A stretch of DNA of 64,000 nucleotides from Mastigias papua (lineage: Eukaryota; Cnidaria; Scyphozoa; Rhizostomeae; Mastigiidae). Location of the stretch: positions 10,197,856-10,261,855 of the forward strand of contig OZ025272.1 of the NCBI GenBank assembly GCA_964019165.1. Direction: 5' to 3'. This document shows positions 37,411-62,658 of the stretch, piece after piece. Position 1 is the stretch's first letter, and each line of letters begins with the position of its first letter. A program made the translations under genes and the position numbers. The notes under the pieces were generated by a model. The model did not search any database, was not told the DNA's origin, and saw only the letters and a list, made by a program, of their open reading frames with translations.

Positions 37411-37628
37411 CTGACAGGAATAAAGAAGAACAAACTAAACCTATGCGCTATGAAGGCATAATGAGATTCAATGATATAGAAAATCTATTAGGCAAAATCA
37501 TCAAGGTATTTAAATAATAAGAATAAAAAATGTGTTTTGCTTGGATGTAATTTGACTAACTCTCCACTTAGGTCATATTGTTACTGAAAATGACATGATC
37601 AGAGTTTCTTGTATCTCGCATTGCCTAC

Positions 37629-39306: not shown

Positions 39307-39817
39307 CTTGAGAAAACAATACGCTATAGCTTCAATATCAGAATGCCTAGTCATTTCTAACTTATAGTAATAATGACAACTTTTTCTTGCTTCAGTTCAT
39401 CGATATGATCTTAAAATCTACCAGTACAGATGTTACAACAACGTAATTTGTACTTGGTTGGCTTAGTGTGCTAAAAAAGGAAGTAATATATGGACCTGGA
39501 TGGTAAAGTTGAAGATAGTTGGAGTGCCTTAGACCAAATTGAATTGAGCTGTTGAAAGGAGTGCTCTAGGAGGAATGATATAATGAGCCCCTGCGACGTT
39601 AACTGAGTCTGAAGTCTATTGGTGTATTCAGCACGAATGGATTTCAAAACCAGTTCTGTGTTTGAGAAAATATCTTATTGAATATTTGCACCATAGTTCG
39701 TATTTCTCCATAACTCTATTATTGTTGTAATTACTGGATAACTTTAAAGAAGACCGTACTATTCCCTGATTTTGCATAATGTTTACAGAGGGTAACTGAA
39801 AAGCTTGGCCAAAATGA

Positions 39818-41134
39818 TCAATGAGTGTATGTTATCAATTCGGACGAAAACCTTACTAGGAGAGTTGCTGCAGCTGGGACGTCCTTCTTACAGAAAAGAT
39901 AGTATGTTGATCGAATACAACTATTGATAGATGATCTGATCAAACTTGTTGCAGGTACTTTTGGCACTCCTATACTTGTTAATGCAGTTAAATTACATTT
40001 TCCTGAATCGTTTTTACCGATATGTCCCTGAGCAATATTACTCATGCTCAGATTGACGAAAATATAAAAAGGTTTTACTGTAGTCATAGGACAGACCAAG
40101 CAAAAGAATCCTTGCAAAATCAACCGAAACAAGCCGTACACCAAGAGAATAAGACACTTTGAGGAAAACAGGACTTTTACATCAAACAAAAAGGAGTTTT
40201 ACCGGAATGCTAGTGGAGATTCCTATGCCAAAACTTTTCAGCACCGTGAAAAATGGTTCCCCATGAGCAGAATATATTCCGATGGGAGTCATTACAGGGT
40301 TGACGAAATTGATTTTATTATAGGCTCCTGTTATTTCCTCGTCCTTCAAAAGATGCTTGCATTTTGTGGCTTTTCTAGCAGCGTCTGATTTGGCGATAGA
40401 TTCATGACTCACAGTTAATGCTTCCATAAACATATCGTTCTTTCTTTCAATCAAAATAAGATCAGGTCTAATAGCAGTTCCAGTAAGTATTCCCACTGGG
40501 AGAAAAGATGACAAATCACAACAGAGTTTCTTTGCGATTGGTTGTAAAAAGTTGGCAAGATTAATAAGTACAGAGTCTTGCCTCCAAGTATAGCGGTTCA
40601 AACAAGAAAAACATCCACTTACGACATGCTTTGTAGTTTGGATTTCTCTGCAGAATGCATAATTGGCACTGATGTTAGTACCCCGTCTTGCTAAATTAGT
40701 TAAGCAGGCAAGAGAGCATTTCATGTATCTTATAGTGAAGCTATAGATGTTTTCGGGGAGCCTGTTCTGCACCTTGATACACGAATCTTTTGCCTTCAGG
40801 AGAGCTGTTTTCCATATTTTTAAATTACTGCGCCTGGGACATTAAATGACTCTATTTTAGCTGTTTGCTCTTCACGGATCCTTTTTAGTACAGCTTTTGT
40901 TGTCTGGAATGAGTCATATTGGTTTGACTTCTCAGATGTGCAGCTATGCAGTTTACGAATATCATCATTGATGGAGATGTTTAGACATTGTCGGAAGGAT
41001 AAATGGCAAAGTTTATGCTTGGAACTAATATCCACAATTTCTTGACCATAGCTACCTTTGTTCAAACGTGCTATCTCAACCTTTCCACAAACAGGTATAT
41101 TTAGCCACTGTCTAAGATAATTATGGCTAGCCAT
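39818..41134 (-). mobile_element. Non-LTR retrotransposon C-terminal fragment in an intron
   Basis: Two minus-strand frames (41134-40820 and 40772-40182) are pieces of one polyprotein separated by a frame break. The first has LRQWLNIPVCGKVEIARL and CHLSFRQCLNISINDDIRKL. The second has CREIQTTKHVVSGC, RYTWRQDSVLINL, TAIRPDLILIERKN and EALTVSHESIAKSDAARK. This resembles the end of R2/NeSL-like retrotransposon proteins: a CCHC-type finger followed by a restriction-like endonuclease (the RPD motif and a downstream E/K). It lies between the first and second fibrinogen-like domains' exons, in the same orientation as the host gene, and is inactive as it stands. The 3' limit is uncertain. Confidence 0.75.
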
Positions 41135-41817
41135 ATCTACATTTTGTTTTATCCAGGTCCCATTAGTATCTGATATTGTGAGGTCCTAGCTGATTTTACT
41201 GAGAAAGTACCTATCATATAGCTGTAGTTTGTTTTTGGGGTGCAAAGTTGGCAGATGAATAAGACTTAGGATTCGATTGGTGGCATCTAGTAACTAGTTG
41301 TTCTTTGTCTTAATAGTTCTGTTGTTATCATTTAATAATCATAACGATAATGATAATATAATCAGTGTGACAAAGAGATTCAAGCACACTAACCGGACAT
41401 TGTTGTAGTATACAAGTGCAAAACGGAAGCTAGAATTGTTAATATTGCAATACCTGATGGTGCCAGGATGTGTTAGAAGGAAATAGAAAAGATAGATAAG
41501 TAAAAATCATTAAAGGATGAAATTGCTAGATTATGGAATATGCGGAAAGTCACTGTAATTTGTATTGTTGTTCGAGCATTGGTAGTGATACCAAAGCGAT
41601 TTGAAAAGTTCGTGAAGGAAGTAGGGATACACATTCGTGTCGAGCATATGCAGAAAACTGCTTTGTAAGGGACAGAAAGAATATTAATATTGGTTCTTGG
41701 TTCTTAGTTACTTGGTTCAAGGACATGTGAGTTCTTTGGCATCTGGTTGATACCTGCATTCACAGAGACTATTCCAAAGTATCTTACATCTACTGCTTTG
41801 AGTTGATACTTAGCAAA

Positions 41818-41866
41818 CATAATAATAATAATAATAATAAATTAATAATAATAATAATAATAACAA
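41818..41866. repeat. (ATA)n microsatellite
   Basis: About 48 bases of ATA/AAT triplets with one interruption, inside the intron between fibrinogen-like domains one and two. Confidence 0.9.
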
Positions 41867-42186
41867 GGAAAAAATAAATGAGTTATTTACAGTTGGCAAT
41901 TAAAGGAAAGATAGCTAACTGGGCCAATTAAAGCCAACTATTTGAATACATTGTAACTTGATACTGAAAGCTAACTGACATTTGCTCTGATATTGAAGGG
42001 GCTCAAGATGCAAGAGCATGTGCATCTGCGAATGAACAGGGATTGCAAAAAATCAAGAAGAGCGATCATTGAACACTATGAATATAAAGGAAAGAAGGTT
42101 AATAAAAGAGCGTTTGATTTACGCTTAATGCCAAATATCTAGCCGCTTTTCAGATATGTGAATTGATATACAACAAAATATCTTAC

Positions 42187-44574
42187 CAAATATACTCAGG
42201 GTTTGGCTCTTTGAAGCCGCCCCTTATCCAAGGTGCTGTAAAATAGTCCGATTTGCTACCTGAAAAATAAAACCATGAGCGGAGGAAGTGAAGAAGGAGA
42301 GTTCGAGTATCACTGTGCATTGCTTAAATTCGAATGTATTTATGAAAGCGAAAGGCAAACCATGTATAAGCTCACATATTTGGAGTTTAACTTACATTCT
42401 GACTACTTTATTGGAAGGTATTACGTGCATAATCTGTGTCCCTCATTGTAATGTTAGATGAAAAATCTTTTCAAGATGCTGCTTAATATCATATTGGCTC
42501 AGCCATGAGAACAGCTCAGAGTTTGGCTTCGTGTTAATTAAAAGCTTTAGGGACATTTTGAGCAGCATTGAAGATTTAAGTTCTCTAGCATTTAATAAAT
42601 GCCACTCAATGATAGGGAAATACATCAAGTCGTCGGAGTAGCCCTCATGGGGGCTATTTATTCTTGACACTTTGGATGGGGCTTTATGCCAATTTACTAA
42701 CATCAATTAAAAGTAAATGGATAATTTACAAGAGAGATTTATCATCTGAAGTCTATGTGAATCAAGTTATATACCTTAAAAAGGTAGACAGAGAATCGAC
42801 AGATTATGCAATCTCACCTGTAATCGAGCCCCACTTAGTTTCACCTGTTTGAGTTGTTAGCCGACTTCCAACAATGTGAGGCATCCTATTTGCAATGGCA
42901 TCACTTCCTAGTGTCCAGTTATCAAACTTCTTAATAAGCTTCAATTTAGTTTGAGAAGATGAAGACGTGTCAAATTTGTAAGTAATTGGAGCAGCCCATA
43001 TGCCTCCCCAGCGTCCTAGAAAATCATGTGACACTTCTATCAGAATTCTATCCACTGATGTTGAATTTGCAGCATGCATTGCAATGTGACATTAAGATGG
43101 ACTAGTATGAATTTCAATTAGAAGATCGTGATATGTTGAAGAAGAAATTCCCAGGACGATTTACAAACAAGCCTGTTATAAGAAGGTGGTTTGCAAAAAT
43201 AAATGTCAAACTCCTCAAAACATTAAGAAAGTGTAATTCTGGAGTCTTGAGAACTAACAAAGTGTAGAACCTGATTATATACTTAAAATTCCAGTCTTCA
43301 AACAAGCCTATCGTCCCTTGTACTTATTTTATGTAGATTCCTTGTGTTACTCTATGAACTCCAGTGTTATGCTTAGGTAGTGTTGATCTGTTTAACGAAA
43401 GCTTTAGGAAGCCTTAAGTATTGAAATCGCCAAATGCTAGGAAAGTTTCAGCCCTGGGCCAAAAAAGCTGCATATGAGTTAGAGTGCACTGCGAGTAGAT
43501 CTAGTTAGCTTTCTTTTTATTAATTGCTGCACTATCTCTAATGTCCACTTTATCACCATTCACTTTTCACACAAATAATGAAGATCGCAGGCCTAAAAAT
43601 CTACAGAAGTTTGATTGACTAATTATCAAGCAACAGAGAACGAGATCCGTACTTCTAACCGAATGTGGCAAAATAAAGCCTCAGTTCTACATGATTAATA
43701 GGATATCTGGTGACGTAAGACTAGGTCAATTGTTTGATCTCTACTGCACAGCGATCCTTACGTAATGTAGCTCCCATATAATTGCAAGATTCGCACAACC
43801 CTATCACAAACATGACATGGCGGGTCTCTGATCATCTGGTTTTCATTGCCAGAGTCATCTCATAAAAATTTTGGCGTTGAAATGTATAAAATGGAGGAAA
43901 ACAATAATTCCTGCATTCCTAGTAACATTCTGTCGACTCTGGTCAGCACTACAACTAACTGAGACAAGTTTTGTAAATGAGGTGCTATAGGGACTTAAAT
44001 CTCTAATGTCAGGCCGACAGGTATGATGCCCCAACAGAAGACTCAGAATTTATAAGAGCTGTGATGGTTGAGATAGAACATTTTCTATCTTGATCGCTGG
44101 GATTGCTGGTGACGCAAGGAGTGCTGGGAAAAGTGAAGAGGCAGCTTCCATTAAGACGCAAGCATGAATGATTACAAATTTATGCGATGCTTTCTTCGCC
44201 AGTGATCCTAGCGATCACATGGAAACTAGGCTTAACAAAGAAATCACAAATACCTCTATTATGTGCTTCAAGGCGATACTCAAATGTGTCATCATCGATG
44301 TCATAGTTTTCCTTAATTGGGTCAACATACTTCAAAATGGAATAATCAGTCCATAATGATGGTTTGTCTTTATTTCGCTCTCTGACCATATCAGATGTTG
44401 TCCAGGTATTTGTACTAGCAGTGACAACAAGGGTCCAACCACCGCCATCGCGTATCATATCACAATACATTGGCATTACTGATCCGTCAGACATCGTAAT
44501 ATTGTACACACCATCGATCATGGGTCTGTTAGAGTCTTGCAGTTTCTTCATCAACAGTTTACAGGACTTGGCGT
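42187..44574 (-). CDS. First fibrinogen-like domain
   Basis: Exons 44574-44254, 43015-42818 and 42259-42187 on the minus strand. The first encodes AKSCKLLMKKL, DGVYNITMSDGSVMPMYCDM, RDGGGWTLVVTASTNTWTTS, DYSILKYVDPIKENYDIDDD and TFEYRLEAHNR. The second gives GRWGGIWAAPITYKF, KFDNWTLGSDAIANRMPHIV and KWGSIT. The third gives SDYFTAPWIRGGFKEPNPEY, ending in the phase-2 codon of a Trp that is completed by the exon starting at 39306. All borders are AG/GT and all internal phases are 1. If the last intron were retained, the frame would stop at once (TAA). Together with the completion in the next exon this is a full fibrinogen C-terminal-like module. Confidence 0.85.
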
Positions 44575-44901
44575 CTGAAGAATTAGGATTGTGGATTACA
44601 ATAAACTCAAGGTAAGAGGTTCTTTAGGGAGGAAGATGGAAGAAGGAATGGACTGATGAAATTGCTTCTGGATAGACGAACTGGTGAAGATGCGAATAAC
44701 AACTACCTGAACAGTAAGAAGCTTTAAGGGTACATTGTTGAGCAAATGCTTGAATGAATTACTGGACAAATGAAAAGACAGTAGTATGAAGGAAGATGGG
44801 CGGAACAAAAGTTATGAGGACCCTCTGAATGGGTGAAAGTATAAATAGACAAAAGTCTTGAATCAAATGAGGCTGAGGAATAAAACTATTGAGCGACATA
44901 C

Positions 44902-45084
44902 TTGGGCAAGCATCTGTATGACACTGCTCGTCTTGGTAACTATCTCCTACACAGTATTTTCCACCATGAGCTGGGAATGGAGCGTCACAAAAGCGGAATC
45001 TCTGCCTTGTACCACCATTGCATGGTAAGGAACAGGTTGACCACGATATCCACTGACCCCAGTCTCCATTAATTGCATTCAAAC
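44902..45084 (-). CDS. Thrombospondin type 1 repeat exon
   Basis: A single 183-nt phase 1-1 exon encodes one complete TSP1 repeat. The tryptophan ladder is in DWGQWISWSTCS, followed by CNGGTRQRFRFC, then CVGDSYQDEQC and DACP, giving six cysteines in the usual order. TSP1 repeats act outside the cell in matrix and glycosaminoglycan binding and are often C- and O-glycosylated at such motifs. It is linked in phase to the EGF-like exon on its 5' side (45427) and to the first fibrinogen-like exon on its 3' side (44574), which supports one transcript. Confidence 0.9.
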
Positions 45085-45426: not shown

Positions 45427-48058
45427 CTGATGTGCAGTTTGTGTTCGGATCAAGCCCTCCAGAGCAATGACATTCGCCGTTATTATCACAGGTCTACAAT
45501 GACATAACAGGACAGAGGCTATGAACAAGATGTCGTATTGATTGAGGAAGTCATTCCTTTGTAGGGGAAAAATTAACAATGATAAGGAAATATATCAGTT
45601 ATAAACTAACAGAATATAATAGCTTGCGAGCTCCCTTGGACTTCAATATAGAAGGCAAACCTACTTAAACAAGGGAGCTTGTTTCGTGCGAAGAAACCCA
45701 AACACCTTAGCTGTTAGTATACGCAATTGAGATTAATGTACAACATATATCAAAGATAAAAATGAGATAAGCTTACCCCTTGACCAGCACATTCTTTTCC
45801 ATTTACTTCAGGACATGTTTTGATTTTCAGCTCAGATATTGACTTACAACTGTAGCCGGAACACATCTAGAAATATGAAGAAAGAGGATGCTTATATAAA
45901 ACTCTTTGTTTTGTTTAAATGAAAAATTCCACATATGTATAAATCGCGCTTTCAGTTACGTTCTATGTTTGGTTGTGTAAACATTCTGCAACATGGCATA
46001 TGTAGTTTTATAATTATATTGCATAGGTTTCAAGAGTTTGAGAGTATGAAGCTCTTCTTAAAGTTGAATTAGCCAACAACAATGTGAATAAAGAAGTCAA
46101 TACGACATTAAATGAGACATATTGTGGGGACCTTGCTTTGCCTCATCGATTTGAATATATTACAAATTCACACTTCTATTCGAGAGCTAAATGACATGAT
46201 AGTATTCTGACCACGATATATCGACAATGACAATTTATGACTCTAAGGAACCGATTATATAAGAGCTCTCTCGAAAATGTCAACTTCTCTCACATCCTTT
46301 GCAGTCCATTCAAATTATTCAAGAAACATTAACGTACTGAGTTTGCGATTCCATGAGAAAATCCCAGTCCGGGCTAGAATTTGAGTCCTCCTTCAGCTAG
46401 ACAGGCTGTGATTTCTAGTCAGGTGAAGTTGATGAGATATTTCATGTAATCACATTTTTCCAGCTCGGGCTGAGAATTTAGTTGGTGCACGTGCATTTAG
46501 TGCACAATCCTGGCAATAATAGACTAGCAGAAGTTATAGCTTTAAATGGCTCCTCTGTAATGGGAGTGATTTCTGGTGGTTTACAATTTCAGGTATTATC
46601 ACTGTAAATGATAGCCACGTCTGTATGAATGACCTCATGTTGTTCCTCCTTTTCTACGGTGAAATAGCTCCTACTGTTCCATTAGGCTCTAGCAGGTTGC
46701 TGAACGTTGAATGAAGTAAGCCTAGTTATCTCCAGTTTTCCATTAGACGATCGAGCGTTAACACGAATTCTTTTTAAGTCTAGCCAAGGCTGAAAACTCT
46801 TATGTAATAGCAAGAAAATTTCATCATGGCTAGCCGGGCTAAGATTGCAGCCCGTGCTGAGAATTCTTACACAATCGGCCTCTATTATGGTAAGTTTTTG
46901 AGTAATTTAATAGTACGACATCACACCTTGCCATCTCCACATTTTGTACCACCTGCAACCATACCCAATCCAGTTCCAATTTGATCATTTGATGATCCGG
47001 GTATCGTTATACTAGCAGCACTGCAACAAAATGAATTGTTTTTAGTGACAATCCATGTAGTGAGATGTATTGGTGCTAGCCATCTGTACAATTAGTGCCT
47101 TATCATGCCTTATGAGAGTGGGACTAAGATACCCCTCGAGTCATAATCAATATAATGTATATGAAGAGAGACTATTGCATCCTATGAAAGATCAGCCAAA
47201 GTTGAGAATGTCTAGTAAAATGCTTTGCAAACAAACCTGCATCTGGTTCCATTGATAAAAAATTCTTTATAAACACTGCCATATTCCTTTTTTGGCGTTT
47301 TTCTGCCTGAGTTACATTGCAGCTGGCCACAGAAAACATCCCTTCAGTGGAAAATGACGTAATGTGAAGTGAATGAGTGCAAAATGTTGTTGATACAGAC
47401 AATATCAGGTCTTAGTGGATCACATTTTCTAGCAGTTGCAAAAGCAATCATAAAGATTATAGCTGAAAAAATAAATATGCTTAATTATTAACATCCAATC
47501 AATCTTTCAATGGACAGTCAGAGTGAACCAAGGGTTATATGTGGCCCGGGAGCCGTGTAATACCCAGGTCTGCTCTTGAGTGTGATCCACCCATGGTTAC
47601 CCAGTTCTCTTGAAATGGCACAATTGTAATGATATCACTTACTTCTGATCACAAGATTTATTTTTTGCATGGTCGCATGTTCCAAATCCGTTTGCTTCTG
47701 TGTTCAGTTTGGTCCAACAAGAACGACCAGCTGGGCGTGTACCTTTGTGGCAAATCAAGGATAACGTCATGAATAACCTACCAGGCTTATGAAGTAATAG
47801 TGAGCACAGAAATCATTTGTAGGGCAATTCCGTCATTGACATTGTCAACTAGTCAAGCAATCAGTAAACGAACCATTCAATCAAAAAATCAATCAATCAA
47901 TGAATCAGCCAATCATTAAAACTATTCAATAAAGTCACCAGTTCATTAGTTTGCTATTCATGCAATCAAACATAATTCTCACCTGGATTCCAAAGGTCCA
48001 TGCATTGATTGCTAAGCGACTTCGAGCAGCTACCACTGTAGCAATAGGATGTAGAGCC
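45427..48058 (-). CDS. ADAM cysteine-rich region and EGF-like exons
   Basis: Five minus-strand exons: 48058-47983, 47742-47643, 47020-46927, 45866-45777 and 45493-45427. Phases run 0/1, 1/2, 2/0, 0/0 and 0/1 without conflict. The translated order matches the ADAM cysteine-rich domain: SYCYSGSCSKSLSNQCMDLW, then CWTKLNTEANGFGTCDHAKN, then GTKCGDGKMCSGYSC, and finally CAGQG..CDNNGECHCSGGL, which is the EGF-like tail. In ADAM proteins this region sits between the disintegrin domain and the membrane anchor and helps choose substrates or adhesion partners. Here no transmembrane segment follows; the frame passes into TSP1. The exon at 48058 joins in phase 0 with the disintegrin-side exon ending at 61434, giving the canonical text CPTDVYQKDGVTC..YCYSGSC. 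Confidence 0.85.
45500..47000. other. Intronic sequence, nothing recognised
   Basis: Apart from the exons at 45777-45866 and 46927-47020, this stretch holds no open frames or repeats I can name. Confidence 0.4.
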
Positions 48059-48304
48059 CTATAAGAAACCCTGAATTTATCGTAATTGTTGGGGACATCA
48101 GATTAGCCCTGCAGTATATTACTACCAGAAGTTGAGAAATAAGTTCATAGTTCTAAAAAATTGACATACGGGTGTTTGTTACTGACATTCAGTTCAAATT
48201 AAGAGCTTTGTAATAAAAAAGAGAGACCTGAAACACCTTTGTACTAGTTATATAACAACTACTACAACAGCAAGAACAAAATACGGAATCAAAATATAAA
48301 CAAC

Positions 48305-51300
48305 CTTTTCCAGATCGTTATGTGATGAGTATTCCTTCCAAATCTTGGCATCGTCAGAGTAGAACAGTTTGAATCCTGACACCCAATTCCAGTTTGTTCC
48401 ATCAAGTCTCATTGAAGACACTGTTTTCGTCTGCATTTCATACAAAAATATATGCAAAATACTGTATTATTGAACATACTTAAATGGAGTATGTCAAAAG
48501 ACGCAAGAGAAGATTGATATGTGAAGTTAGTTACTACCAAATTTATGTCTCTAGATCTGCAATTGAAAATCTCAATAATAGTATGCGTTGCAATATATGA
48601 TGTCATAAGAGGCAAAGAGGTTGGAGAACAGAAGGACTACATTCCCCAGGAGAAAGTCTGTCGGCATTTTGTCACTTTATTGGAACGTGTGTCATAATAA
48701 GTTTCTTTTGCTATGTTAAGTATTCTCATAAAATAAAAGGACATCACCTTAATACTATAGTATACTATTCATTCACATTGTGGTCTGGGAGATACATTTT
48801 TAACCATTCCACAGGATAAACGTGAAAACTTTTCTCTCACTTCGTACCAAACCATGGTACTCCTACTTTACTAACTGAGCTCAATAGCTGCCTACAAGCT
48901 TTTTCTATAAGGAAACTTTGCCGAAAATCTAGTGCCATAAAAAAGATAAAGACACAAGTAACTTTAAATCCTAAACTTTGCTTTTAATTTAGGCTAAACG
49001 TAAGACCAATAAACCATGGGAGACTTGACACAAGCATAGCAAACAGTCTAAGCGGGTTTTGACTATAAATGAATAGAGGCGGCTTCCTAGTTCTTGATTG
49101 TTTCCTGTTATAAACATTTGTCAAATTGAAAAGTTCCCTAGGAAATTTTCGTTTAGTAATAGAAGTTCTTTAACTATTTCAGCATTCTACATGTAGGCTC
49201 CTTACAATGTAGTTCCATTTAGAAAAGCGGGTAGTAGTATTTTGCAGTAACCAGTGGCGTTGGTAGCTGTAGGTATCAAAGGAAGGAGCGGCTGTTCCTC
49301 CACTTTGAGTGACACATATGGTTATCAGATTACTTTAAAGACAGAGAATTGTGTTTTCATATAAACATTCTACAAAGAGCCTAACATCCAAAATTAAAGA
49401 TTACCATTCCTAAGTCAATCTGGAGGTATTCATTCTTTTCTGGGTGTTTTGGAGGGCACCATGACTTGCCAACATTAAATCTTGCTTCCTTCGGGGGGTT
49501 ATCTCCATCATAAGAGGAAGCAGTAAAAGCCGAATCAGGTAGCTTTCCATTCTCCATTCCAGCAGGCATAAGACAATCTGAAACAGCGTGTAAAGAATGC
49601 TCACCTCTTGTGATGAATCATGATAAGTACTAAATAAAACTATATTTAAGTACAAAAAAGGCATTTTTTGCTAAGTTTTGAGTAAAGCCTGGTTTCCGTT
49701 TAAAAATGACCTTGCAATTATGCAGACGACACGACATATTATGCTCACAACACTAGAGCGGCAAAGGCTATTGTAAAGTTAGAGGAGGCTGTCTCTAATA
49801 GTCCCATATGGTTTAATAATAATTACATGAAATCAAATACCGATAAATGTCATCTGATGATCTTTGGCAAAAACGAAGATGAACTATCTCTTAAGATTGG
49901 GAGCGATATGATAACTGAGAGTAAGGATGAAAAACTTCTAGGGGTGATTATTGATAGAAAGCTTTCATTTAAATCACAAGTAAGCGCCCTATGCAAAAAG
50001 GCCAACCAGAAGTTGGATGCCTTATCTCGGATCTCTCGCTATATGGACAGTGGGAAGCAAAGACAAATCACGAGGACATTCTTACTATTTCAATTCAGTT
50101 ACTGTCCTCTACTCTGGATGATTTTCTGACAGACAATTGGATAACAGAATAACGTTCACGAATAGGCTCTGAGCATTGTATACAACGGTTACATTGTCTG
50201 ATTTCAATACTTTGCTACAAAAAGATAGCTCAGTGACAATCCACGAATGGCATTTACAACCGCTAATGACAGAAATCTACACGACAAATTCAGACCTTAA
50301 ACCATGTTTCCTGAGAGCTATTATTGTTCAGAAAAGCACATCTTACAATTTAAGAGTAAATAACCGGCCATTTCCAGGTAGGTTATTATGGCATACAGTG
50401 CCAAATGAAATTAAAAATTCTAGAAGCATATTTATATTCAAACACTTTATTATATACTCGAAAAAGCAGGAAAAATGTCCTTGTAGATTGTGCAAAGAAT
50501 ACTTGCCCTAAGTTGGCTTTTGTTTTAGCATTTCTTTTTTCACTTGGTGCTCTTAGGAAACGTTTAATTTATCATTTCTTATTAATGTTTTTTTACTAGG
50601 ATCATTGTAAGTAGGCTTTAATTAGCTTTTTTATGCTATTTCTCATGTAGTTCTATGTTATTTCTCATGCTTTTTAATGCTATTTCTCATCAAGAAATAA
50701 CTATATCAAGAATCCGCTCAACGTAAGGTTTGCATAATCTGCAGTTGCATTTGGTATCTTTCCAAGTTTTAATCTTTTTCTTAAACATTGGGAGATTCTA
50801 GAAGATCTTTTAATGTCGTTTGTAATCTCTTGCCAGAGCTTCGATCCCAAGTAGGTTGTACTTTCTATACCATAGCAATTTGTTTTTCGATACCACGTGT
50901 GGTCTAGACATATGGGTATTAAGTTTCAAAACAGCTAAAATTTAAGAATAATTTAAGACTATTCGTAAGCTCAAAATGAGAAAATTTCTAATATATTGAA
51001 GTTTAACGACAAATTAGGCATTCTTTAAAAATACGCCAGTATGCTACCTAAAGAGTCATACTTTACCTGATTCAAGGAAATAAAGTTTGGCTCCGTAATC
51101 AGGCCCATCACAATCCTCAGTCCATCTAAGTTTAACTCTCTTGTTGTTACTTGGCTTGCCATCTGTTGCTTCAACACAACCTCCTGTTTTAATGTTCTTC
51201 AAGCCAAAATTCTAAATTGAAATTTAGAAAACATCCAATTAAATAAACTGGTAATACATCTTTACATAATATCATATTGAAATTTTCCGACCTTGAGTGT

Positions 51301-52429
51301 TAAGGTAAGTAGGTGAAAACTTACTTCCAGAAATTTTGTGCTACTGAACAATTACATTACTTACCGATAGTCTTTTGTACTTTCCCTTGTCATCTGGACA
51401 CTGATTTTTCAATGAAAGATAATTCCCTGAACCTGGGCATACAACTTTACCACTGCAATTATGTCTAAGGGTGCCATCATTTTCCAAAGTAAATAGATAA
51501 TTTGGTTTATTGCAGTCACCAAATTTCTCTCTTTTGAATACCAAGGGTGAATCTCTGGTTTTGCTGTCGGCACAACTGGAGCTGTCCGGCACGAGACACA
51601 CTGAGCTTGTGTCACTATATTTTCGTGTGGCAATCGGTTGAGCTACAGGGCTTAACTCTATAGAATGGATGTAAACCTACATCAGAATTATAAACACCTG
51701 TACCTTACTATAGATTTTCGAATTTGCCCCCCCCCCCGTTCTGTGAGCCAGTACTTACAGCATATTCATATGTGATAGTTTTGGGCTGAGGGACTAGGAT
51801 CGTGGGGAAGGGGTAATAATAACATGTTCTGACACAAAATACATAAAAACTGATGTTAAAACTTCCCATCAGTATTATGCAAAAAGAGTTGTTTTAATAC
51901 AAGTACCTCTGTGATATGGGCTGATTCGACTGAAGCTTTTTGAAACTCTGGAGTTCTAGCATAAGGGCTAATGCGAGGAATGGCTTGTTCGAATGTTGGC
52001 CAAATCTACCGGCAGCTTGATGTGCAGAACCTCTTTTTAAGTACAAAATGCCAGAATAATGGTTAACCTGAATCTAACAATGCTTGTACACAATTGTTGA
52101 TTGTAGAGCTGCAGTCGTGAGAAGCAATGTCTAATGGTACTGAATAATGCACTGCCATCAGTCATTAAAGTTTGGGATTTACCATGTAAAAAGTTGACGG
52201 TAATGAATTAGTAAAAGTTGAAATGCAATTCTAGTGGCAAGTTGATTCATAAGTACAACACATTCTTAAGAAAAAGAGTACCTTTAGCAGTACTGCATGT
52301 CAGCAATTCCATTCGCATGCAAGCCCAGTCGTTAGGCCAGTAGACTGGATTGAATCGCAAGTGTCTTGCTTTGATATGAGGGTCAAATGCGATAAATGTT
52401 TCTGATTCATTTAGATTACCTGTTATGAC
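48305..52429 (-). CDS. Permuted discoidin/lectin-like cassette, copy 2
   Basis: Five exons on the minus strand, 885 nt in total. 52429-52282 (phase 0/1) is the C-terminal third of a discoidin (F5/8 type C) domain: KARHLRFNPVYWPNDWACMR, MELLTC. 51657-51365 (1/0) and 51211-51067 (0/1) form a cysteine-rich lectin-like module with CLVPDSSSC, TLENDGTLRHNCSGKVVC, GNYLSLKNQC and KTGGCVEATDGK; the LRH-SGK-C pattern suggests beta-trefoil-like repeats. 49577-49405 (1/0) and 48430-48305 (0/0) are discoidin exons 1 and 2: CLMPAGMENGKLPDSAFTAS, EYLQIDLG, SSMRLDGTNWNWVSGFKLFY. Discoidin exon 3 does not follow: the next exon downstream is the ADAM exon at 48058. A LINE lies between exons 51067 and 49577. 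The cassette may be alternative exons of the ADAM gene, part of a nested gene, or a relic. Confidence 0.7.
49690..50530 (+). mobile_element. 5'-truncated LINE with reverse-transcriptase remnant (YADD)
   Basis: On the plus strand, from about 49710, the frame reads YADDTTYYAH, the catalytic motif of reverse transcriptase. It continues with MKSNTDKCHLMIFG, KLLGVIIDRKLSFKSQV, CKKANQKLDALSRISRYM and FSYCPLLWMIF (stop near 50129). After a frame break it resumes with LYTTVTLSDFNTLLQKDSSV, NLRVNNRPFPG, PNEIKNSRSIFIFKHFI and CPCRLCKEYLP. This is the usual C-terminal half of a Jockey/CR1-class polyprotein. The host cassette exons are on the opposite strand, so the insertion is antisense to them. The copy is dead. 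Confidence 0.85.
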
Positions 52430-52758
52430 CTACAGCAGACAATAAAGAGTTGCAAGACATTGTGACTTGACAACATACCTGTATTAAAATACCTTTACAT
52501 AACAGAACATTGAGCTTTGAACTGGTTATGTGCTACCCGTAGTGTGCTATCCTTACCTAAGGTGCCCAGTAAAAAGTCATTCTTAAGTATGGGAAGTAGC
52601 AAAGAACTAAGAGTATACGCCTCGCTTGTAAAGATATAGTTAACCGTGAGTTATTGTACTTGTGTCGTAATTTGGGATACATTTGTTGTGACAGAGCATC
52701 TTAACAGGAAAATAGCAGATATCTCTTCTTATACATACAAACATACACACATACATAC

Positions 52759-52947
<189 letters not shown>

Positions 52948-53370
52948 AATTCGACAGAATTACAGGAAACCCGGATTACGTTAATAATCTTTTCGGTGAT
53001 ACCACACATTTACCCATGACCCTATTAAATGTCTGTTGTTGCTTGGAGGCCACTCCCAGGATGTTGGGGCTGTACAGTGTCCTCTTTGCCTTCAGTAGGA
53101 AGTCAGGTTAGTAGTTGGCTATAACTTGAGCATGTAAGGATAAGGTAACACAGTGATGAACACGACTGTATTTATTAGAATATTTGTAAAATTGATGATC
53201 CGGATTATGGTGAATAAATAGCATGTACTTGTACCACATGGAGTGAAATATATTGTTTATGCATATATTCGGACTAAGAGATCTCGATAATGAGAATTAT
53301 TTTAGTTAATTTCAAAAGGAAATTTATTGGAATTTTGTTTGAAATACATCAAGGATAAATCAGATCAGAA

Positions 53371-53800
53371 TTATGCGAGCTTGATTGTAAAATCTTTACA
53401 GAGGATGTTCTTCCCCAGCACGAAAACATTCTCATAATGAGGTGGGAATCGGAGTAAGGTACCTTTTAAAATTGCACTACTGGAAAATTTCTCCAGTGAG
53501 CCCTCTTCTGGCCCAATAAAAAGTAACATTGGATTGGGTGAAGCAGCTTGGAATTCTTTAAGAAAACCCCATGATTTCTCTTCAAAATTCAAATATTGCA
53601 AGCCAAGCCGTCTGTGAACTAAACACAAGAGCAAGGGCCAATTAGATAGCCTCTCTTCGAACAAACCGACCGCGCTTCGCTTAACGATGAATGTAGCAAC
53701 TAGCCGATACAGGCTGGGTCCACTAGTCACATTTCTTTGAAAGATGCTCTCACTCAGATCATTGAGGGAATATGGGCCAATGAGTAACTGGGCTCACTTG
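53371..53800 (-). pseudogene. Unrecognised open frame in an intron
   Basis: A 119-codon frame, open back to about 53800, reads SLNDLSESIFQRN, VTSGPSLYRLVATFIVKRSA, SNWPLLLCLVHRRLGLQYL, SPNPMLLFIGPEEGSLEKFS and PHYENVFVLGKNIL, then a stop. The composition looks like a real, folded protein: few low-complexity runs and a balanced residue mix. I recognise no family. It lies between cassette exons 54230 and 52429 with no splice site that would join it in frame. The best guesses are the 3' part of a retrocopied host gene or a transposon ORF. Confidence 0.35.
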
Positions 53801-54229
53801 GGGGATCGTGCACACTATTGCATAATTTAATGCAGTTGCAACACCCCGGTCACAATTTAGCCACAAGAAAGTACACGACTTCATGCAGAATACTGGCAAT
53901 TAGGATAGAATCAGGGTTCTCAGGATGTTTTCAAACATATTCCCTGACTTCACCAGGTCTTCTTGACCAAATTATTGAAACCTCCCTAGCCTTTTGATAC
54001 ATTATACAGTGCAGTTTTCAGTGGACAAAAGAAATGGCTTGACATATGTGCCGACAATGAAGGAGCGAAAACAATGGGGGTGTGAAACCTTCCTTGCTAT
54101 TCCAGATTTTCAAGAGTTTATCTGATCTCAAGTGTAATTCCTTGACTTTTCCAAGTTCTCCAGGATCCAGAAAACCCTGCGAATAAAGTCAGTACAAGGA
54201 CAGAATAACTTTCCAAAAGTATAAGCAAC

Positions 54230-57200
54230 CTTATCGAAGTCTTCATTTGAAGAGTATCCTTGCCAATCTCTACCAAGGTCAGAATACAATAGCTTGAATC
54301 CAGTAACCCAATTCCACCATGTTCCTTCCAGCCTCATTGAAGACACTGTCTTTATCTGGTTTTCATAGAAAAATTTAGTAAAAATTGTGTAAAGGCTAAA
54401 TACAATGCAATGGAATATATCAAGGGATATAACATACGCTTAATAGTTGAGGTTAACTACTGCCAGATGCATTTTTCTAGACCTGTGATTGAAAGTTGTG
54501 AGGAGATATTGCGCTACAAGTGGCTGATTCTGTCAGAGCAAACGTCAGCTCATAATGTGATTCAAAATAAGTGCTATCTCTCTCTGTTAACTTTAATCTA
54601 AGATTGATACAAATGGTGTATCTTCAAAGAGTTTCAGTTTCAGTTTTCAGTTTCAATTTCAGTGATTTATTAATCTATCCTTAATACAGTTATAAACAAA
54701 TTATGATGCAATTAACTACATTGCAACAACAAATCAAATTAACTACAAATTACAGTGCTATAAATGAAATTAGAAAAAAATAAAAAAGTACATCAGAAAA
54801 CTGTAAGAAGGATAGGTTAATTTAGGAGGAACTCTCCAAATAGGTGAACTAATTGAGGGAGAGCCCCCAATAAAAGCAAATAAAACAGAAAAAATAAAAA
54901 AAATAGATAATAAAGAAAAATATATATATATATATAAACCAGACAAACCTCATAATGATAAATTCTAAGAAAAGTAAGGGGGAAGTTATTGATTAAACAT
55001 GAAATCAATTAAATGAGCCTTCAGTTTAGACCGAAAAAGTTCAACAGAGCCTGTAGCACGAATGCAAATTGAAAGAGTATTTCACAAGTTTGAGTCGAGG
55101 TATTAGGACCGTTTGTAATCCGTAGAGCGTAGTATTTTTAACAGTATTAAACAGAACACCTCTGGCGCTTGACGCTTTCCAAACCTATGAATTGAAGAGC
55201 TACGAGATAATTTTGATTTCATTGAGGCACTCTACAAGGTCCGTGGCATTTACCAGGTAACGTTACCCTCCCTACGTAGAGAAACTGATGTCTTGAACAT
55301 GATATTTCTACCAAAGTCGATTTCCTAAACTAATGTCTCTTACCGTCCACTTATATCCAAAAGGAGTACAGGTCTTCGACAGAGATAATCTTCATCTTCA
55401 TTCAAAAATTATAGAAAACAACTTGCACTAATTGGTTAACGTTACCTTTCCTATGTCAACTTGAAGGTATTCATTCTTTCCCAAATACTCTGGAGGGCAC
55501 CAAGATTCGCCAACATTCAGTCTTGCTTCTTTTGGGGGGAATTGATCATCATAGGAAGAAGCTGTAAATGCTGAATCAGGTAGCTTTCCGTTCTCCATTC
55601 CAGCAGGCATAAGACAATCTGAAATATCGTTCCAAAGGATTTCTTACTTCTGGTACTAATAATGATTGCCAATTAGTACGAACAAAAACTATTATATAAA
55701 CATGTACCTATTTTTAACCAAGAGAACTCTAAATATAATTTAGGGAATTCACGCCTGGTCACGTAATTTTGACTTTATTAAATTTATTTCTAATTCAAAA
55801 TGCTACCTAAAGAGCCATACTTTACCTGTTTCAAGGAAATAAAGCTTGGTTCTGTAATCAGGCCCATCACAATTCTCTGTCCATCTAAGTTTAACTCTCT
55901 TGTTGTTACTTGGCTTGCCATCTGTTGCTTCAACACAACCTCCTGTTTTAATGTTCTTCAAGCCAAAATTCTAAATTGAAATTTAGAAAATATCCAGTTA
56001 AATAATCTGGTGATACATAGCTTTACATAATATCATATCTGACCTTGAGTGTTAAGGTAAGTAAGTGAGAGATTACTTTGAGAAATTTTGTGCTACTGAA
56101 CAATTACATTACTTACCGATAGTCTTTTGTACTTTCCCTTGTCATCTGGACACTGATTTTTCAATGAAAGATAATTCCCTGAACCTGGGCATACAACTTT
56201 ACCACTGCAATTATGTCTAAGGGTGCCATCATTTTCCAAAGTAAATAGATAATTTGGTTTATTGCAGTCACCAAATTTCTCTCTTTTGAATACCAAGGGT
56301 GAATCTCTGGTTTTGCTTTTGGCACAACTGGAGCTGTCCGGCACGAGACACAGCGAGTTTGTGTAAGTGAGTTTCCTTGTGGAAATTGGTTGAGGTACAT
56401 GTATTACATCTGTGGGATTGAAATAAATAGATATCAGAACCATTAGCACCTGATTGAAAATGGCTGTCACTGAGGTCAAAAAATCTAATTCTATGCTTAT
56501 CAAAACGCATTAAATCAAGACACCAACAGGTGAGCGGATTGCTTTATTGCTATATTTCTCCATCCTATCAAACTTATCAAAGTTATAACAAATAATGCTG
56601 TAAACAATTCTTGCAGTACAAAGAACATCTCTTGCCCTTTCGTAAGAGGAGCAAAGGAGTCGAGTCAGAAGTACTTTCTTTTGAATAAAAATAATCATTA
56701 TATTATCATCATGTTATAAAAGTAATATCATAAAACTTCCCCAGAGTTCAGACGAGAGTCCCAATATTTCTGTTCGTTTTGCTCACCTGTCGCCTAAAGT
56801 GCCCTTTTGTTCCTGTTAGTCTTCATGTCCTATTCCCTGGGGCTACTCATATATATTTAGGACAGGGTGCTCAGGCTGGTGTACAAACCATCAGCCCAAA
56901 AAATAATTTCTAATATAGAAATTGATCCAAAACATAATTTTTCCTGCCTTGTACACCCAGAAAATAACAGAGAAAATCCGCTCCATCCAGAAGACCTGTT
57001 ATGAAGTTTTCATCTGCAATTGGTGAAAAATAAATCATGCTTGCGTGTAAACCATATTTTTCTCTAATTCTTAAACTTTCTCAGATTCAAAACCCAAAAA
57101 GCAATTCGACATTTCATGAACCTAAAAAAGTAATTGTATAGTTTCCAGACCCCAAAAAATAACTTTCGCTCAAATTTTAAACCCAAAGAAGTAACCTAAG

Positions 57201-57558
57201 CACCCCTATCCCAAATATATATGAATCCCCCCTTGGGTCCTACTATTGCTCCGGTGTCCCTACACGTAGCAAGACTGTTAGATTCTTACCACTCCCTACC
57301 TCTCATCTATCTTTCTTCCCTTAGTGGGGGAGGGGTTGGGAGGACATTACTAAAGGCCTGAGTCATGATGTTTTCCCGACATCACATGCTGAAAAAGAAA
57401 ACAAACGTACCTTCATTTGCACTGCATGTGAGCAGTTCCATTCGCATGCAAGAATAAGTGCTGTGCCGATAAACTGGATTGAATCGAAAATATCTTGCTT
57501 TGACGGGAGGGTTAAATACAATCAACGATTGGCCTCTTCCAAGATTACCTGGTATGAC
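54230..57558 (-). CDS. Permuted discoidin/lectin-like cassette, copy 1
   Basis: Same five-exon order and exon lengths as copy 2. 57558-57411 (148 nt, discoidin exon 3: KARYFRFNPVYRHSTYSCMR), 56409-56117 (293 nt) and 55970-55826 (145 nt) form the lectin-like module. 55618-55446 (173 nt) and 54355-54230 (126 nt) are discoidin exons 1 and 2: CLMPAGMENGKLPDSAFTAS, SSMRLEGTWWNWVTGFKLLY. Exons 1 and 2 of this copy join in phase to exon 3 of copy 2 (52429), giving one complete discoidin domain. Exon 3 at 57558 has no partner exons upstream that I can find; that region is occupied by retroelement remnants. Discoidin domains bind lipids or carbohydrates at cell surfaces. The lectin-like exons are almost identical between copies, while the discoidin exons have drifted. 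The cassette sits within one ADAM intron. Confidence 0.75.
54600..55330. mobile_element. Probable retroposon tail
   Basis: A short (TTTCAG)n-like run at 54635-54665 borders an A/T-rich stretch. The minus strand then holds broken frames, including a VELFRSKLKAHLIDF-like phrase that resembles the C-terminal FKxxLKxHL of LINE or gene-derived retroposons. Ends are not defined. A small (TA)n run is at 54920-54937. Confidence 0.35.
56845..57226. mobile_element. MITE-like element with ~30-bp inverted ends
   Basis: The left end reads ACTCATATATATTTAGGACA and continues GGGTGCTCAG. The reverse complement of the right end reads ATTCATATATATTTGGGATA and continues GGGGTGCTTAG. The 382-bp body has no open frame. 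Its right half repeats an AACCCAAAAA-GTAA-like phrase several times. It lies in the intron between cassette exons 57411 and 56409. Confidence 0.8.
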
Positions 57559-57749
57559 CTAAAACAGACAGAGGAACGTTTCTTTATTATACTTAATAAT
57601 AAAATGACCTTTCAAGCAAGGCATTTGATAGCATACCAACTTCTGGGGAAAAGTCCACAGTAGGACCAATGCTTTCCCCTATAATGGTCAGCAAAATCAA
57701 ATAATTCCCCATATTTGCTTGGCCCCACTCAAAAGGCGATTCAAGGCGA

Positions 57750-60700
57750 GCCATTTACTCTTTGGGAGTAAGTGCTATATTCGTCTTCTTTAGGGCTTAT
57801 TGGGTTCTTGGTCCCGTATTTGTACTCCTTAGGAGAATGAATAAGATAAAAGACAATTTGCTTTTAAAGTTATTCTGTGTTTTCTTGAACAGTTTTGGAT
57901 CTTGTCATGTATTCTTTAAAAATCGAAATATTTCCAAGAAAGCAGAGTTTTCTAAGTACCACAACTTAAAGTGTCACCATTTGTAGACAAGAATAATCTT
58001 TATCGATGTTTCGATCCTCACTTGCGAGAAGTTTTGGAGCAACCCACTAATAGAGCTTTTTCCAAAGAGTAACAAACACGAATAATTGTCTTTTAACAAA
58101 ACGTTAACGACGTAGATTAAATAAAGTTTCCGTTTAATAGAAGTTTGATACAATCCAATATCCTGCCTGAGTAGTATACGGGTTATACAAAGGAACTTAT
58201 TGAAAGTATGGTGTACAGTAATAGGGTTGACCATGGAATGATGGAAACGCATGGGCAGGTCCTATCCCAACATTGTTTGCGTAATAGCCAGGAGCATAAT
58301 ACGCTAACCGAGTTGGTTCATTCCAAGCTCTGGTTGGTCGTTGATCACGATGTGCTAAACTATTGTCAGAAGTCGATTGGCTGTGAGTGCTTTCTTCACA
58401 CTGACTGTCAAAAATGGTTTCCAAAGGTACTTCTTCTGATACGCTATTATAAGTTCTCTCTGAGTTCAGGTACTCCAAAGTCATTTACATGCCTTGTGTC
58501 CTCTACATCGCTAGTACCGCTAGTACACGAGTGTTCCTTGTCTTGATTTCAAATGTCTAGTGACTTTTCTGCAATATCCTGTTCGCTTTCAAATATCGTT
58601 CGCTCTACGCATGGAGTAACATGTTGGTCAACACGTAGATCAGATGGCTGTTTGCTGATATGTTTCATGGCGTGAGCTCCATAGTCATTCACTGGTGGCA
58701 AGGAGTGGGCAAGGATAGTACATCCATCATTTGAGCTGTCCTGCTCATTGATCTGCCCTGTTCAGTCAGTCTGTCTTTTACAGGCTTTTCGATTTGCTCT
58801 GGAACTGGACTGTTTTAAGCTCACACATTCATGCTTAGATTTGGTGCTTGTGGTGCTGTTGCCTGTTAATGGCAGGAAACTACAAGGAAAGAGTTGGTTG
58901 CGGTGAAGCGTACGTGTGCGTCCTTGTCCTGTTTCAGTGGTAACTTTGTAAACATGTAGATCTATGTCTGCAAGTCAAAAAACAATATCAACCTTTATGT
59001 TTTGATAATATGAACTTTATCTTCCCAATGTGCTTGGGGCTACCCTTTTCCAGAATATGGCAAAACTAGAACACGATGGTTTATTTTAAAGTCTGAATAA
59101 TGAGCTTCCTTATCAACTTTTTGTTCCTTTGTGATTGTTTGCAACATGCTTGTTGTCCTACCGTTTTATAGGCTTGTTCCACCGGCGAGGCCAGTCTCAA
59201 ATGCGTTCAGAAAGGCACTCTGTATAAGTTGTTAACTGTATTGCCCTTCAGTTCCCTCTCCCTGGTTAGCAAACATTACTTTGTTTCTAGCATCCAAAAG
59301 ACGGGGAAGAAACTGCTGTGCTTTTTCTTTGGGATGCTGAACGGTAGTAAAGAGCTGTTGGTATAGCTCAGAAGCATTTGGTCTTGGCAAAATACGTAAA
59401 GAATTTTTTGTAACTTTGCTAAGGAACGGTCTTTGAGGGTTAAAATACAGTTTTGTAGACTGCTATGTGGTTATATTGCTTTAATAATAGGATCAACAAC
59501 CATGTAGTCTTGATCTTCTTCTTTAATAGCTTTTCCGTCTTCTTCAGGACATTAGCCTTGCCACTGTTTTCTTCCATTCCTTTCGCTCATAATCGTTTTC
59601 AGTTAATTCGTCTACTGTTTTGTTTATTGCCTTCAGATCTTTATTTATTTGTTTTATCCACGTATGTTTTGGTCTTCCTCGGTTACCTTTCGCTTTTTTA
59701 AAATGTTCTTTGAAAGCTAGTTTTGCTGGTGTTCCTTCTGGTAGCCTTAGCATGTGCCCAAGCCAGTTTAATCGGCGTTTCTTTATTTCGGTTGTGATGG
59801 GTATTTGATGTGATCTTTTATATATTTCTCTCGTAATCTTTTATATATTTCTCTTTATTTATATATTTCTATTTTATTTCGTAGTCTTGATAACCTCGCT
59901 TAATTCCGAATTGGTGACACAAAGCAACGTGCGTCAATTTATTAGGTTGGCTTGGTTCTCCAACTTCCCCTGCAATCTTAGATTGCGTTGAAAATATGTC
60001 GATGTATGTAATGGTTTAAGTGAGAGAACAGAATATGGGACAACAGTTGCTCTCTGATCCTGACACTCTCCAGGGCTATTCTGCAGCGAACTTTCGAGCT
60101 CTAGCAACTCATGGGCATGTTGTAACATTAATTTTGTGATTTTCCGGGAAACTTCCGCTTCAGCAGTATCCCTTTACGTAGATTCAGTTGGTACCAGGCC
60201 AGACAGCATTCCTTGAAATATCTTCCCCGCGCCACCTAAGTGCTTCCACCCGCATATGTGCCATTACTTGGTGAAAGCCCTACTCGCTCTATTTTAAGCA
60301 CTTGCGTCAGATGAAATATTTTATGTTCCACAACCTTTACGTGCGCCAAAAATTTATCTGACAATGAGCTTCCCTCGCCAAATGTAAAAAATTCAGTCTG
60401 GGTACCTGGTTTCTAACAGGAGCAGAGCATTGGTTGAGATGGCGATTATTTTGGATGAAATCACAAAAAGCAAGTTCAGAAGTTTAAGTTTGCAATTCCT
60501 CATAATCAAAAACTAATTGAAGGAGTCAGAATTTACGACCTGTTTCAACAAGTTGAGTTTGCTGCAATAGACGGATTTTGACTTTTACACGCAAGAGCCA
60601 AGCTTTCCTCCAGTTCAGACATACTTTAGTAAAGCAGTTGCAAGCTAAAAATAGCTTCTTGTTTCCTTTTATAAATACTGCGTGGAAATAACAAGAAAAT

Positions 60701-60950
60701 ACTAGGCCTACCTAAGATGAGGCAATTGTAAAGCAGCAGCAAAACTAAAAAATACGTAGTGACATTCCTCTGTCCTTCATTCCAACCGAAGTAAAAGTAG
60801 TACGGAAGACCGACTTGCTACAATTGTTATATTCGTGTCCTTAAGGGCTTGATGGGGTCTTGGTTCTTTATTTACACTCCGAAGGACAATGAATAAGAGA
60901 AAACATAGTTTCCTTTTTTAACGCAGTCATTAATTCATGTAAAAGTCGTT
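57750..60950 (-). mobile_element. Degraded Gypsy-class LTR retrotransposon remnant
   Basis: On the minus strand at about 59100-58760 the reading runs FKINHRVLVLPYSGKG, then HVYKVTTETGQGRTRTLHRN, LFPCSFLP. This is the C-terminal end of a Gypsy integrase, here with stops. Further on (58484-58197) comes RPTRAWNEPTRLAYYAPGYY, typical of the polyprotein tail. Similar stretches at about 57765-57875 and 60825-60925 (TATATTCGTCTTCTTTAGGGCTTATTGG against ATATTCGTGTCCTTAAGGGCTTGATGG, each followed by GTCTT/GTTCTTGGT..TTT.TACTCC) may be the two LTRs. The reverse transcriptase is gone. A separate LINE fragment is embedded at about 59544-59850. Confidence 0.65.
59544..59850 (-). mobile_element. LINE-type reverse-transcriptase C-terminal fragment
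   Basis: The minus-strand frame reads RRLNWLGHMLRLPEGTPAKL, then KGNRGRPKHTWIKQINKDLK, then DELTENDYERKEWKKTVARL and a stop. The WLGHxLRxP...RGRPxxTW...DRxxWRxxV order marks the end of many animal endonuclease/reverse-transcriptase polyproteins. No catalytic core remains. Confidence 0.85.
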
Positions 60951-61433
60951 CACTCTTTACTGCTATATGCAAAATTCTAAAATCTCAGGGGAATAGGCAC
61001 TACATTATTGCAGCATCATGTAATAGGATATTGTGATTTCATCACTGTGGATGAGAAATGTGTGCTGCTTACTTTCTACCAATCTGTCTAAATGGGGAGG
61101 TCGAAACGTTTTCTCCATCCTTTGTGGCCCTCTTTGAGAAACTGCTTCACTAATATAAATTCTTTGCAGCTGTGTGAAGTCAGATAGGTTTTGTGATGCA
61201 GATAGTGTCCATAAGGGAATGATTTCCCTATTAAACATGTAAGTCCTTGCAGAATAGGATTACACAAATTCATGCTTCCTTGTAACTTTGAAACCATATT
61301 AATTGAATAGTTCTTAAACATGTTTGGTGGAAATGCCTTAAAAGCAAGCTGCCCATCAGAAATGCATGTGACTTTCAATACGTTCAGAGCGCTAACTCTT
61401 AAAACATGAATTAAGATCACTTTTAAAACTCAC

Positions 61434-62658
61434 TGACGTCTGATAGCTGCAAGTTACCCCATCCTTCTGATATACATCAGTTGGGCACTACAAAACAACA
61501 AGTGTCGTTTGATATCATACAAATATGTTACTGATATTAAGAGCTCACTTGTTAAAAAACAAGGGTCTTAACTGTTGTCACTTGATAACCTTTAACTCAA
61601 AGCTAGAAGTAGATTCCTCAAAACTTCACAAATAAAGCAAAATTACTATAGAATTTTTGGCTACAATAAATGACGAGTAAAGCTATTTCACTGCTTCTCA
61701 ACCATAAGCATCAGTAAATTTCAAGAAGGCATTGTAAATATGCATTATTAGGTATATGTCATTGAGCTCAGGAATTACCGTAGCAGACTCTCCTGTGCAA
61801 TATTCTGCAATATCACAGTTATTTTTTGGTTTTCTGCACAAAGTACCTTGTCTCTTAAACTAAAATTTCAAAAGAAAACACTGATGAAATCATTAAGTCT
61901 GTACAAAACATTCTTAGAAAACGAGGAATGTCAACAAAGCGTCATTTGGTTTAAGTGGCTAAACTTGCTATGAATGCTAATGATACTTAAGGAAATTTTA
62001 AGTAAAATGTAACATTCTCCAATCAGTTTTCAATTCACAATAATGTTCACGAGAATTACCAATAGATCCTATGGCATGTTTATACAGGCAAAACCAACCA
62101 AACTAAGGATTGGGAGGTAAGATCCAATCTTCCTATAGAAAGCGTTGCAATTTCAACTTGTGCTTATATGGAAACTAGTTGTTCGGGTCGAATGAGATCC
62201 TTCACTCAGCCAGCATGATCTCACTTCAGCTGGATGAAGTTTCCCATATGAAAGATCAACTAACTGGAGGATTGGATATGGAATTAGGACATGTACACAG
62301 ATGCAAATTTGCCTCTTGCAAAGCAAAATACATGAAATGGTATATTGCGGTTTGAAGGACGGTTGGAAGGTGAGATGCTGAAACCATATGCTGAAGCCTC
62401 AAATGATAATTCCTTGTAAACATGCGGATATTTTATTCCGCTTGTCAGCCCACAGGGCTCGAAGGTGGATAACTTTTTTACTATAAGCAGGCCCTTGGAA
62501 ACCATTAGTAGGCGATGCATTCCAGTTATACTAATGAAAGCTGGTTTACTTACTAGACAATCCTTACAGCAATCTGGTGTATTCAAATCACTGCATTGTG
62601 CAGATCGCTTCAGTTTACAATTGTAAGGCTGACAGCAGTTGTCGTTCTTTTTACACGA
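61434..62658 (-). CDS. ADAM disintegrin-domain exons (5'-most visible part of the long gene)
   Basis: Three minus-strand exons, all phase 0: 62658-62554, 61859-61779 and 61487-61434. They encode the second half of a disintegrin domain and the link to the cysteine-rich region: SCKKNDNCCQPYNCKLKRSA, QCSDLNTPDCCKDCL, then FKRQGTLCRKPKNNCDIAEY, CTGESAT, then CPTDVYQKDGVTCSYQTS. Cysteine spacing follows ADAM proteins. The integrin-loop position reads NNCDIAEYC, so it is an xCD type and not RGD. The zinc-protease motif HExxH is not in the window; it would lie upstream of 64000 if present, so I cannot say whether this protein has a catalytic domain. The last exon (ending 61434) faces a 13.4 kb intron before the matching exon at 48058. 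Confidence 0.85.

Follow-up and report, generated by a model that had tools for sequence, protein, structure and literature searches.

Evidence for circular permutation in nature generally comes from the comparison of distant structures. In known discoidin domains the natural first and last cysteines form a pair. ADAM and snake-venom-type metalloproteinases have disintegrin and cysteine-rich regions in common, and the ADAM loop considered below is thought to help choose substrates. For natural circular permutants, a model of duplication followed by trimming is described in the excerpted part of PMC2096629. Here, we analyse an ADAM gene of the scyphozoan Mastigias papua that lies on the minus strand of a 64 000-nucleotide stretch of DNA, called the window throughout (contig OZ025272.1, labelled C8, positions 10197856–10261855 of the 347 Mb assembly GCA_964019165.1). 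Ten exons in this gene, which encode discoidin and lectin-like parts and stand between those for the disintegrin and cysteine-rich regions, are best read as belonging to the host gene and coding for a circularly permuted discoidin domain, the natural ends of which are bridged by a lectin-like module and the new ends of which are set in a loop of the cysteine-rich region (probability roughly 0.8).

The block lies between host exons H1 (61434–61487; CPTDVYQKDGVTCSYQTS, ending in ..CSYQTS in phase 0) and H2 (47983–48058; GSTSYCYSGSCSKSLSNQCMDLWNP, starting with GSTSYC in phase 0), the latter marking the beginning of the cysteine-rich region; like all exons given here, both are on the minus strand. 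The ten exons run twice in the order D3–La–Lb–D1–D2, with no stop codon. Unit 1 comprises D3 (57411–57558), an outer half that encodes the C-terminal third of the discoidin domain, the lectin-like exons a and b (La, 56117–56409; Lb, 55826–55970), the N-terminal discoidin exon D1 (55446–55618) and the middle discoidin exon D2 (54230–54355). Unit 2 comprises D3 (52282–52429), which follows D1 and D2 of the first unit to complete a contiguous discoidin domain in natural order, La (51365–51657), Lb (51067–51211) and the other outer half, D1 (49405–49577) and D2 (48305–48430), with which the block ends. The start of La in unit 2 is uncertain: position 51657 was used, giving 293 nt as in the six other units described below, and an in-frame AG at 51642 would give 278 nt. 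The exon lengths are 148 (D3), 293 (La), 145 (Lb), 173 (D1) and 126 nt (D2), so that two units of 885 nt make 1770 nt or 590 codons, beginning and ending in phase 0, and all ten exons are preceded by AG and followed by GT. The exon order, the permutation, the intact frames and the phase match with the host intron proposed in the earlier note therefore stand. Frame-neutrality alone is weak evidence, because three of the five possible cut points are in phase 0 (La|Lb, D1|D2 and D2|D3; the other two, D3|La and Lb|D1, are in phase 1) and whole units are always symmetric.

When put back into natural order, the discoidin exons form a complete domain. D1–D2–D3 of the window matches the F5/8 type C (discoidin) profile PF00754 at 7.9e-19. 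The two outer halves of the window block, joined, score 80.5 bits, compared with 70.6 bits for the contiguous inner copy, and are therefore not decayed. For three single-unit paralogs (C, D and E; see below), the de-permuted exons score 78.8, 73.7 and 72.7 bits over profile positions 2–127 of 127 (cut-off 28.2), whereas in the native exon order of C the match splits into two stretches. The best matches in the Protein Data Bank (PDB) are the C domains of coagulation factors V/VIII and the b domains of neuropilin; like these, the reordered exons cover the full-length profile and keep the first and last cysteine, and unlike these, the block places D3 ahead of D1–D2, with the lectin-like module between them. 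The cysteine that comes first in D1 and the one that comes last in D3 are invariant in all seven units. The D2|D3 cut coincides with a phase-0 intron position in all three other discoidin exon pairs read here, although one of the three donors used for this comparison is an unusual GTTGGT inferred from the frame. One cut, each part kept once and selection on the parts, three marks of a natural circular permutant, are found together.

Host exons around the site of the block were searched against the same genome and gave 18 matches, 17 of them on C8 and one on C12. The C8 matches correspond to five gene copies in tandem, spread over ∼280 kb and each on the minus strand: the window gene and paralogs A, C, D and E, the latter four having been read around the block only. 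In all five genes the block sits between homologous H1 and H2 exons in the identical permuted order, with two units in the window gene and A and a single unit in C, D and E. The seven units (35 exons) have lengths of 148, 293, 145, 173 and 126 nt throughout, with every exon open and flanked by AG/GT, and in each gene every unit has a single D1, a single D2 and a single D3. The contiguous N-to-C discoidin domain exists only as the inner copy of the two-unit genes; the single-unit genes run D3–La–Lb–D1–D2. As the block occupies one place in all five paralogs, its introns are ordinary host introns, and the earlier proposal of a cassette inserted in one intron of one gene is not supported. A search of the genome with the unit, which scores the best candidates only, returned 56 matches, of which 35 are in the five genes (seven each for D3, La, Lb, D1 and D2) and the remaining 21, outside them, cover the discoidin part alone. 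Among the candidates scored, neither the lectin-like exons outside the five genes nor the un-permuted lectin–discoidin source gene proposed in the earlier note were found. The distance from the last D2 to H2 is 161–857 nt across the five genes, with no D3 within it, and the arrangement that had been named as counting against the permutation (D1/D2 upstream and D3 downstream of the block) is absent from the array. Within the window, BLAST, profile searches and DNA alignment against shuffled sequences gave no relic of D1 or D2 upstream or of D3 downstream; weak profile hits, among them a D2-like candidate at 57969–58046 (8.3 bits), were rejected owing to a lack of DNA-level support. The block is thus not unique to a single intron, nor are pieces missing at its flanks.

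Purifying selection acts on the discoidin exons. For C–E the ratio of nonsynonymous to synonymous change (w) is 0.25 (p = 4.5e-6; 27 nonsynonymous and 25 synonymous differences) and for D–E it is 0.26 (p = 1.3e-4). Natural-order D1–D2–D3 is absent from these single-unit genes and the constraint therefore acts on the permuted form. Between A and the window gene, w is 0.26 for the outer halves (p = 3.2e-5) and 0.14 for the inner copy, and for the lectin-like exons among C, D and E it is 0.07–0.13. The discoidin exons of the two window units are 76% identical (dN 0.21, dS 0.75), a divergence that, read in this gene only and beside the far more similar lectin tracts, might have pointed to a dying array. 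Across the 1015 nt made up of H1, the five exons of the block and H2, C–D, C–E and D–E differ at 40, 76 and 61 positions with no indels; in the introns, the same pairs differ at 529 of 2710, 450 of 2030 and 493 of 2040 aligned bases (20–24%), with 44, 77 and 85 indel events. This paralog comparison superseded a simulation of neutral decay of the block. Selection has kept the exon order, so that the block looks like a working, circularly permuted domain rather than a dead insertion.

The surroundings of the block are those of an ADAM. The host exons match the ADAM_CR profile at 40.8 bits (cut-off 29.4), and their best PDB match is the ADAM-type structure 3k7l (9.9e-24). The disintegrin part, a partial query, scores 35.0 bits, just under the cut-off of 35.1; to the disintegrin part of the gene belong exons at 62554–62658 (SCKKNDNCCQPYNC..CCKDCL) and 61779–61859 (FKRQGTLCRKPKNNCDIAEYCTGESAT), with ends placed by eye and homologues in all four other paralogs. 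Downstream of H2 follow H3 (47643–47742; GTRPAGRSCWTKLN.., ends also by eye, with homologues in paralogs) and a thrombospondin type 1 (TSP1) domain (approximately 44900–45082; PF00090, 5.2e-12). An exon with the HExxHxxGxxH zinc site (HEMGHGFGLTH) is located 2.6 kb upstream of the window on the minus strand (read for the window gene only). The H1|H2 site corresponds to a loop that is four residues shorter in ADAM-type chains of solved structure. Relative to ADAM and snake-venom-type metalloproteinases, with which the disintegrin and cysteine-rich regions and an upstream HExxH exon are shared, genes of this type would carry ∼295 or 590 extra residues between the two regions if the block is spliced in, and the window gene continues after the cysteine-rich region with TSP1 and then fibrinogen-like stretches, the fibrinogen match being below the cut-off. 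Several such related stretches lie on the host strand at 35827–44623, downstream of TSP1; one piece matches PF00147 at 0.023, which is that sub-threshold match.

From this arrangement we infer the following topology. In each unit the discoidin domain is cut at the phase-0 intron that separates D2 from D3, and its two parts are joined in swapped order, giving H1–D3–[La–Lb]–D1–D2–H2 in the single-unit genes. If it is spliced into the host mRNA, the block would project as a closed loop, preceded by the final cysteines of the disintegrin region and followed by the YC with which the cysteines of the next region begin, with D1–D2 folding back onto D3 and La–Lb serving as a bridge. In the two-unit genes (the window gene and A), the middle D1–D2–D3 stands in natural order, flanked by outer halves that complement each other. 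The predicted product is a zinc metalloprotease whose lectin/discoidin head might bring in substrates or matrix. If so, a protease loop has gained a binding head, and a natural permutation can be followed exon by exon in a young gene array, where single-unit and two-unit genes stand together and the same genome also has an ADAM free of the insert.

Some observations weigh against this reading. The discoidin exons of C–D give a w of 0.46 that is not significant (p = 0.06), as does D2 between the second units of A and the window gene (w = 0.46, p = 0.19), and D3 of the two window units gives 0.51 (p = 0.07). Moreover, splicing H1 directly to H2 would leave a normal ADAM, so that the block may be an alternative one. 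In this case the coding block would be included in some transcripts only, and the resulting ADAMs would either carry or lack the lectin/discoidin head. Clean skipping, raised in the earlier note, is indeed feasible, as block and host intron are both in phase 0; H1 and H2, joined, match solved ADAM-type chains and the ADAM_CR profile, and the ADAM on C12 is read through at the site without insert in one long open frame. Conservation in five genes, however, fits constitutive use equally well, and we consider selective inclusion possible but clearly the weaker prospect.

The earlier note also offered, as an alternative, an independent nested gene, or the remnant of one with lost ends, inside the host intron. 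If one gene is read alone, the outer halves do seem orphaned, and in two of the five H1–D3 introns (A and E) an ATG opens a signal-peptide-like stretch that is followed by a phase-0 GT. No such start is present in the window gene, C or D, however (0 in the window compared with ∼1.5 expected by chance). At the other end, read-through of the last D2 of the window (48251–48304) gives a very hydrophobic tail of 18 residues with a mean of 3.06, a level reached at only nine of the window's 6703 GT sites, but in paralog A the tail is not retained (nine residues) and in C, D and E it is of other kinds; this glycosylphosphatidylinositol (GPI)- or membrane-like tail was treated as chance. Since the block ends identically in all five genes, with only 161–857 nt and no D3 before H2, and neither a first nor a last exon of its own was found, the nested gene with lost ends was rejected on the evidence of the paralogs and a nested gene of any kind is very improbable. 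An assembly artefact is extremely improbable: the arrangement recurs five times over ∼280 kb of a single 17.6 Mb contig with diverged introns, and the window contains no N and resolves long pure dinucleotide runs. The reading of the ten exons as host exons for a permuted discoidin domain is retained.

Trees of the discoidin exons give three groups (the first units of A and the window gene, their second units and the single units), although in the D3 tree E is not firmly placed with C and D; this grouping implies that the two-unit form predates the split between A and the window gene. As to the precedence of the one-unit or the two-unit form, a tree rooted with an outgroup was compatible with all three orders, which gave approximately unbiased (AU) p values of 0.67, 0.09 and 0.44 and, in a second set, 0.81, 0.06 and 0.28, with few replicates. 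Duplication followed by trimming, as far as the excerpt of PMC2096629 sets it out, resembles the present case in that permutants have one breakpoint and a complete domain, as here, where the single-unit genes show neither loss nor doubling; the two-unit genes also hold the permuted and the natural order together. The block differs from those permutants in that the cut is at an intron and is rejoined by splicing, with no need for start and stop codons, and in that the new ends are within another domain while the old ends are bridged by a whole module. Our proposal, for which the odds seem about even, is that the discoidin domain was permuted when its exons were rearranged at a phase-0 intron of old standing, that the two-unit genes keep the natural-plus-permuted intermediate, and that the permutation let a phase-1-edged module graft in frame into the ADAM loop as a closed, lectin-handled ring. 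If this is true, the intron-phase rule can be circumvented, phase-1-edged modules entering a phase-0 intron through permutation at a phase-0 intron of their own.

The origin suggested in the earlier note, in which a circular DNA copy opened between D2 and D3 was inserted, would yield the observed exon order. Insertions of circular DNA have been described for human segmental duplications in the part of PMC7188851 considered, and duplication through such extrachromosomal circles would give a permuted order as found here. Unlike in that system, no source copy with lectin exons was found in the genome search, though it may be lost, and an identical order would also result from duplication-driven permutation or from the cutting of a tandem array at that intron. 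We regard a circular intermediate as unlikely. The block edges carry no distinctive target-site repeats (the longest shared words measure 9 nt in direct and 12 nt in inverted orientation), and comparison of the outer-edge introns with the inner D2–D3 intron showed no homology above that of shuffled sequences, which is uninformative at such divergence.

The La–Lb module is termed lectin-like on the basis of faint sequence resemblance, and neither Pfam nor the PDB gives a clear answer on a lectin identity. It scores 14.1 bits with the ricin-B profile (0.054), below the cut-off of 29; the best ricin-B match reached 0.002 (five of six sequences scanned) and still did not pass the cut-off, and a search of the PDB gave no significant match. 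The La–intron–Lb tracts of the two window units (51041–51700 and 55800–56452) are ∼90% identical over ∼660 nt with sharp edges. Trees of this tract group the copies by gene, pairing the two of the window gene and, at 84 but not for Lb alone, the two of A; the lectin copies have therefore been homogenized within each gene.

Protein-database searches were subject to a length rule that bars full-length ADAMs, so that absence there means little; the whole unit had no relatives among 221 candidates that could not include full-length ADAMs. A search with La–Lb returned five short proteins, four of which are 76–79% identical over the La exon only. The fifth is nearly identical to the window, including adjoining intron-derived residues, and thus probably comes from the same or a very close species. 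A single-unit protein returned one coral discoidin protein (35% identity over 30%). A literature search on permuted discoidin domains, in which most subscription journals were outside the scope, gave none on the subject by title or abstract start.

The four paralogs have H1–D3 introns of 674, 916, 810 and 536 nt, whereas that of the window gene measures 3875 nt because of an insertion, specific to the window gene, between direct repeats (57759–60998, minus strand; repeats 60822–60917 and 57770–57865, 78% identical). By its motifs it looks like a decayed long terminal repeat (LTR) element, a label that Pfam did not confirm. The Lb–D1 intron of unit 2 contains a reverse-transcriptase-like fragment on the plus strand (49710–50508; PF00078, 15.5 bits, below the cut-off). 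Elsewhere in the window, a ∼750-nt direct repeat is present in about three copies that are 87–92% identical (21219–23241), and the plus strand at 25992–28209 carries a 503-residue open frame followed by one of 147 residues, which by eye resemble a mobile element or a recombinase gene.

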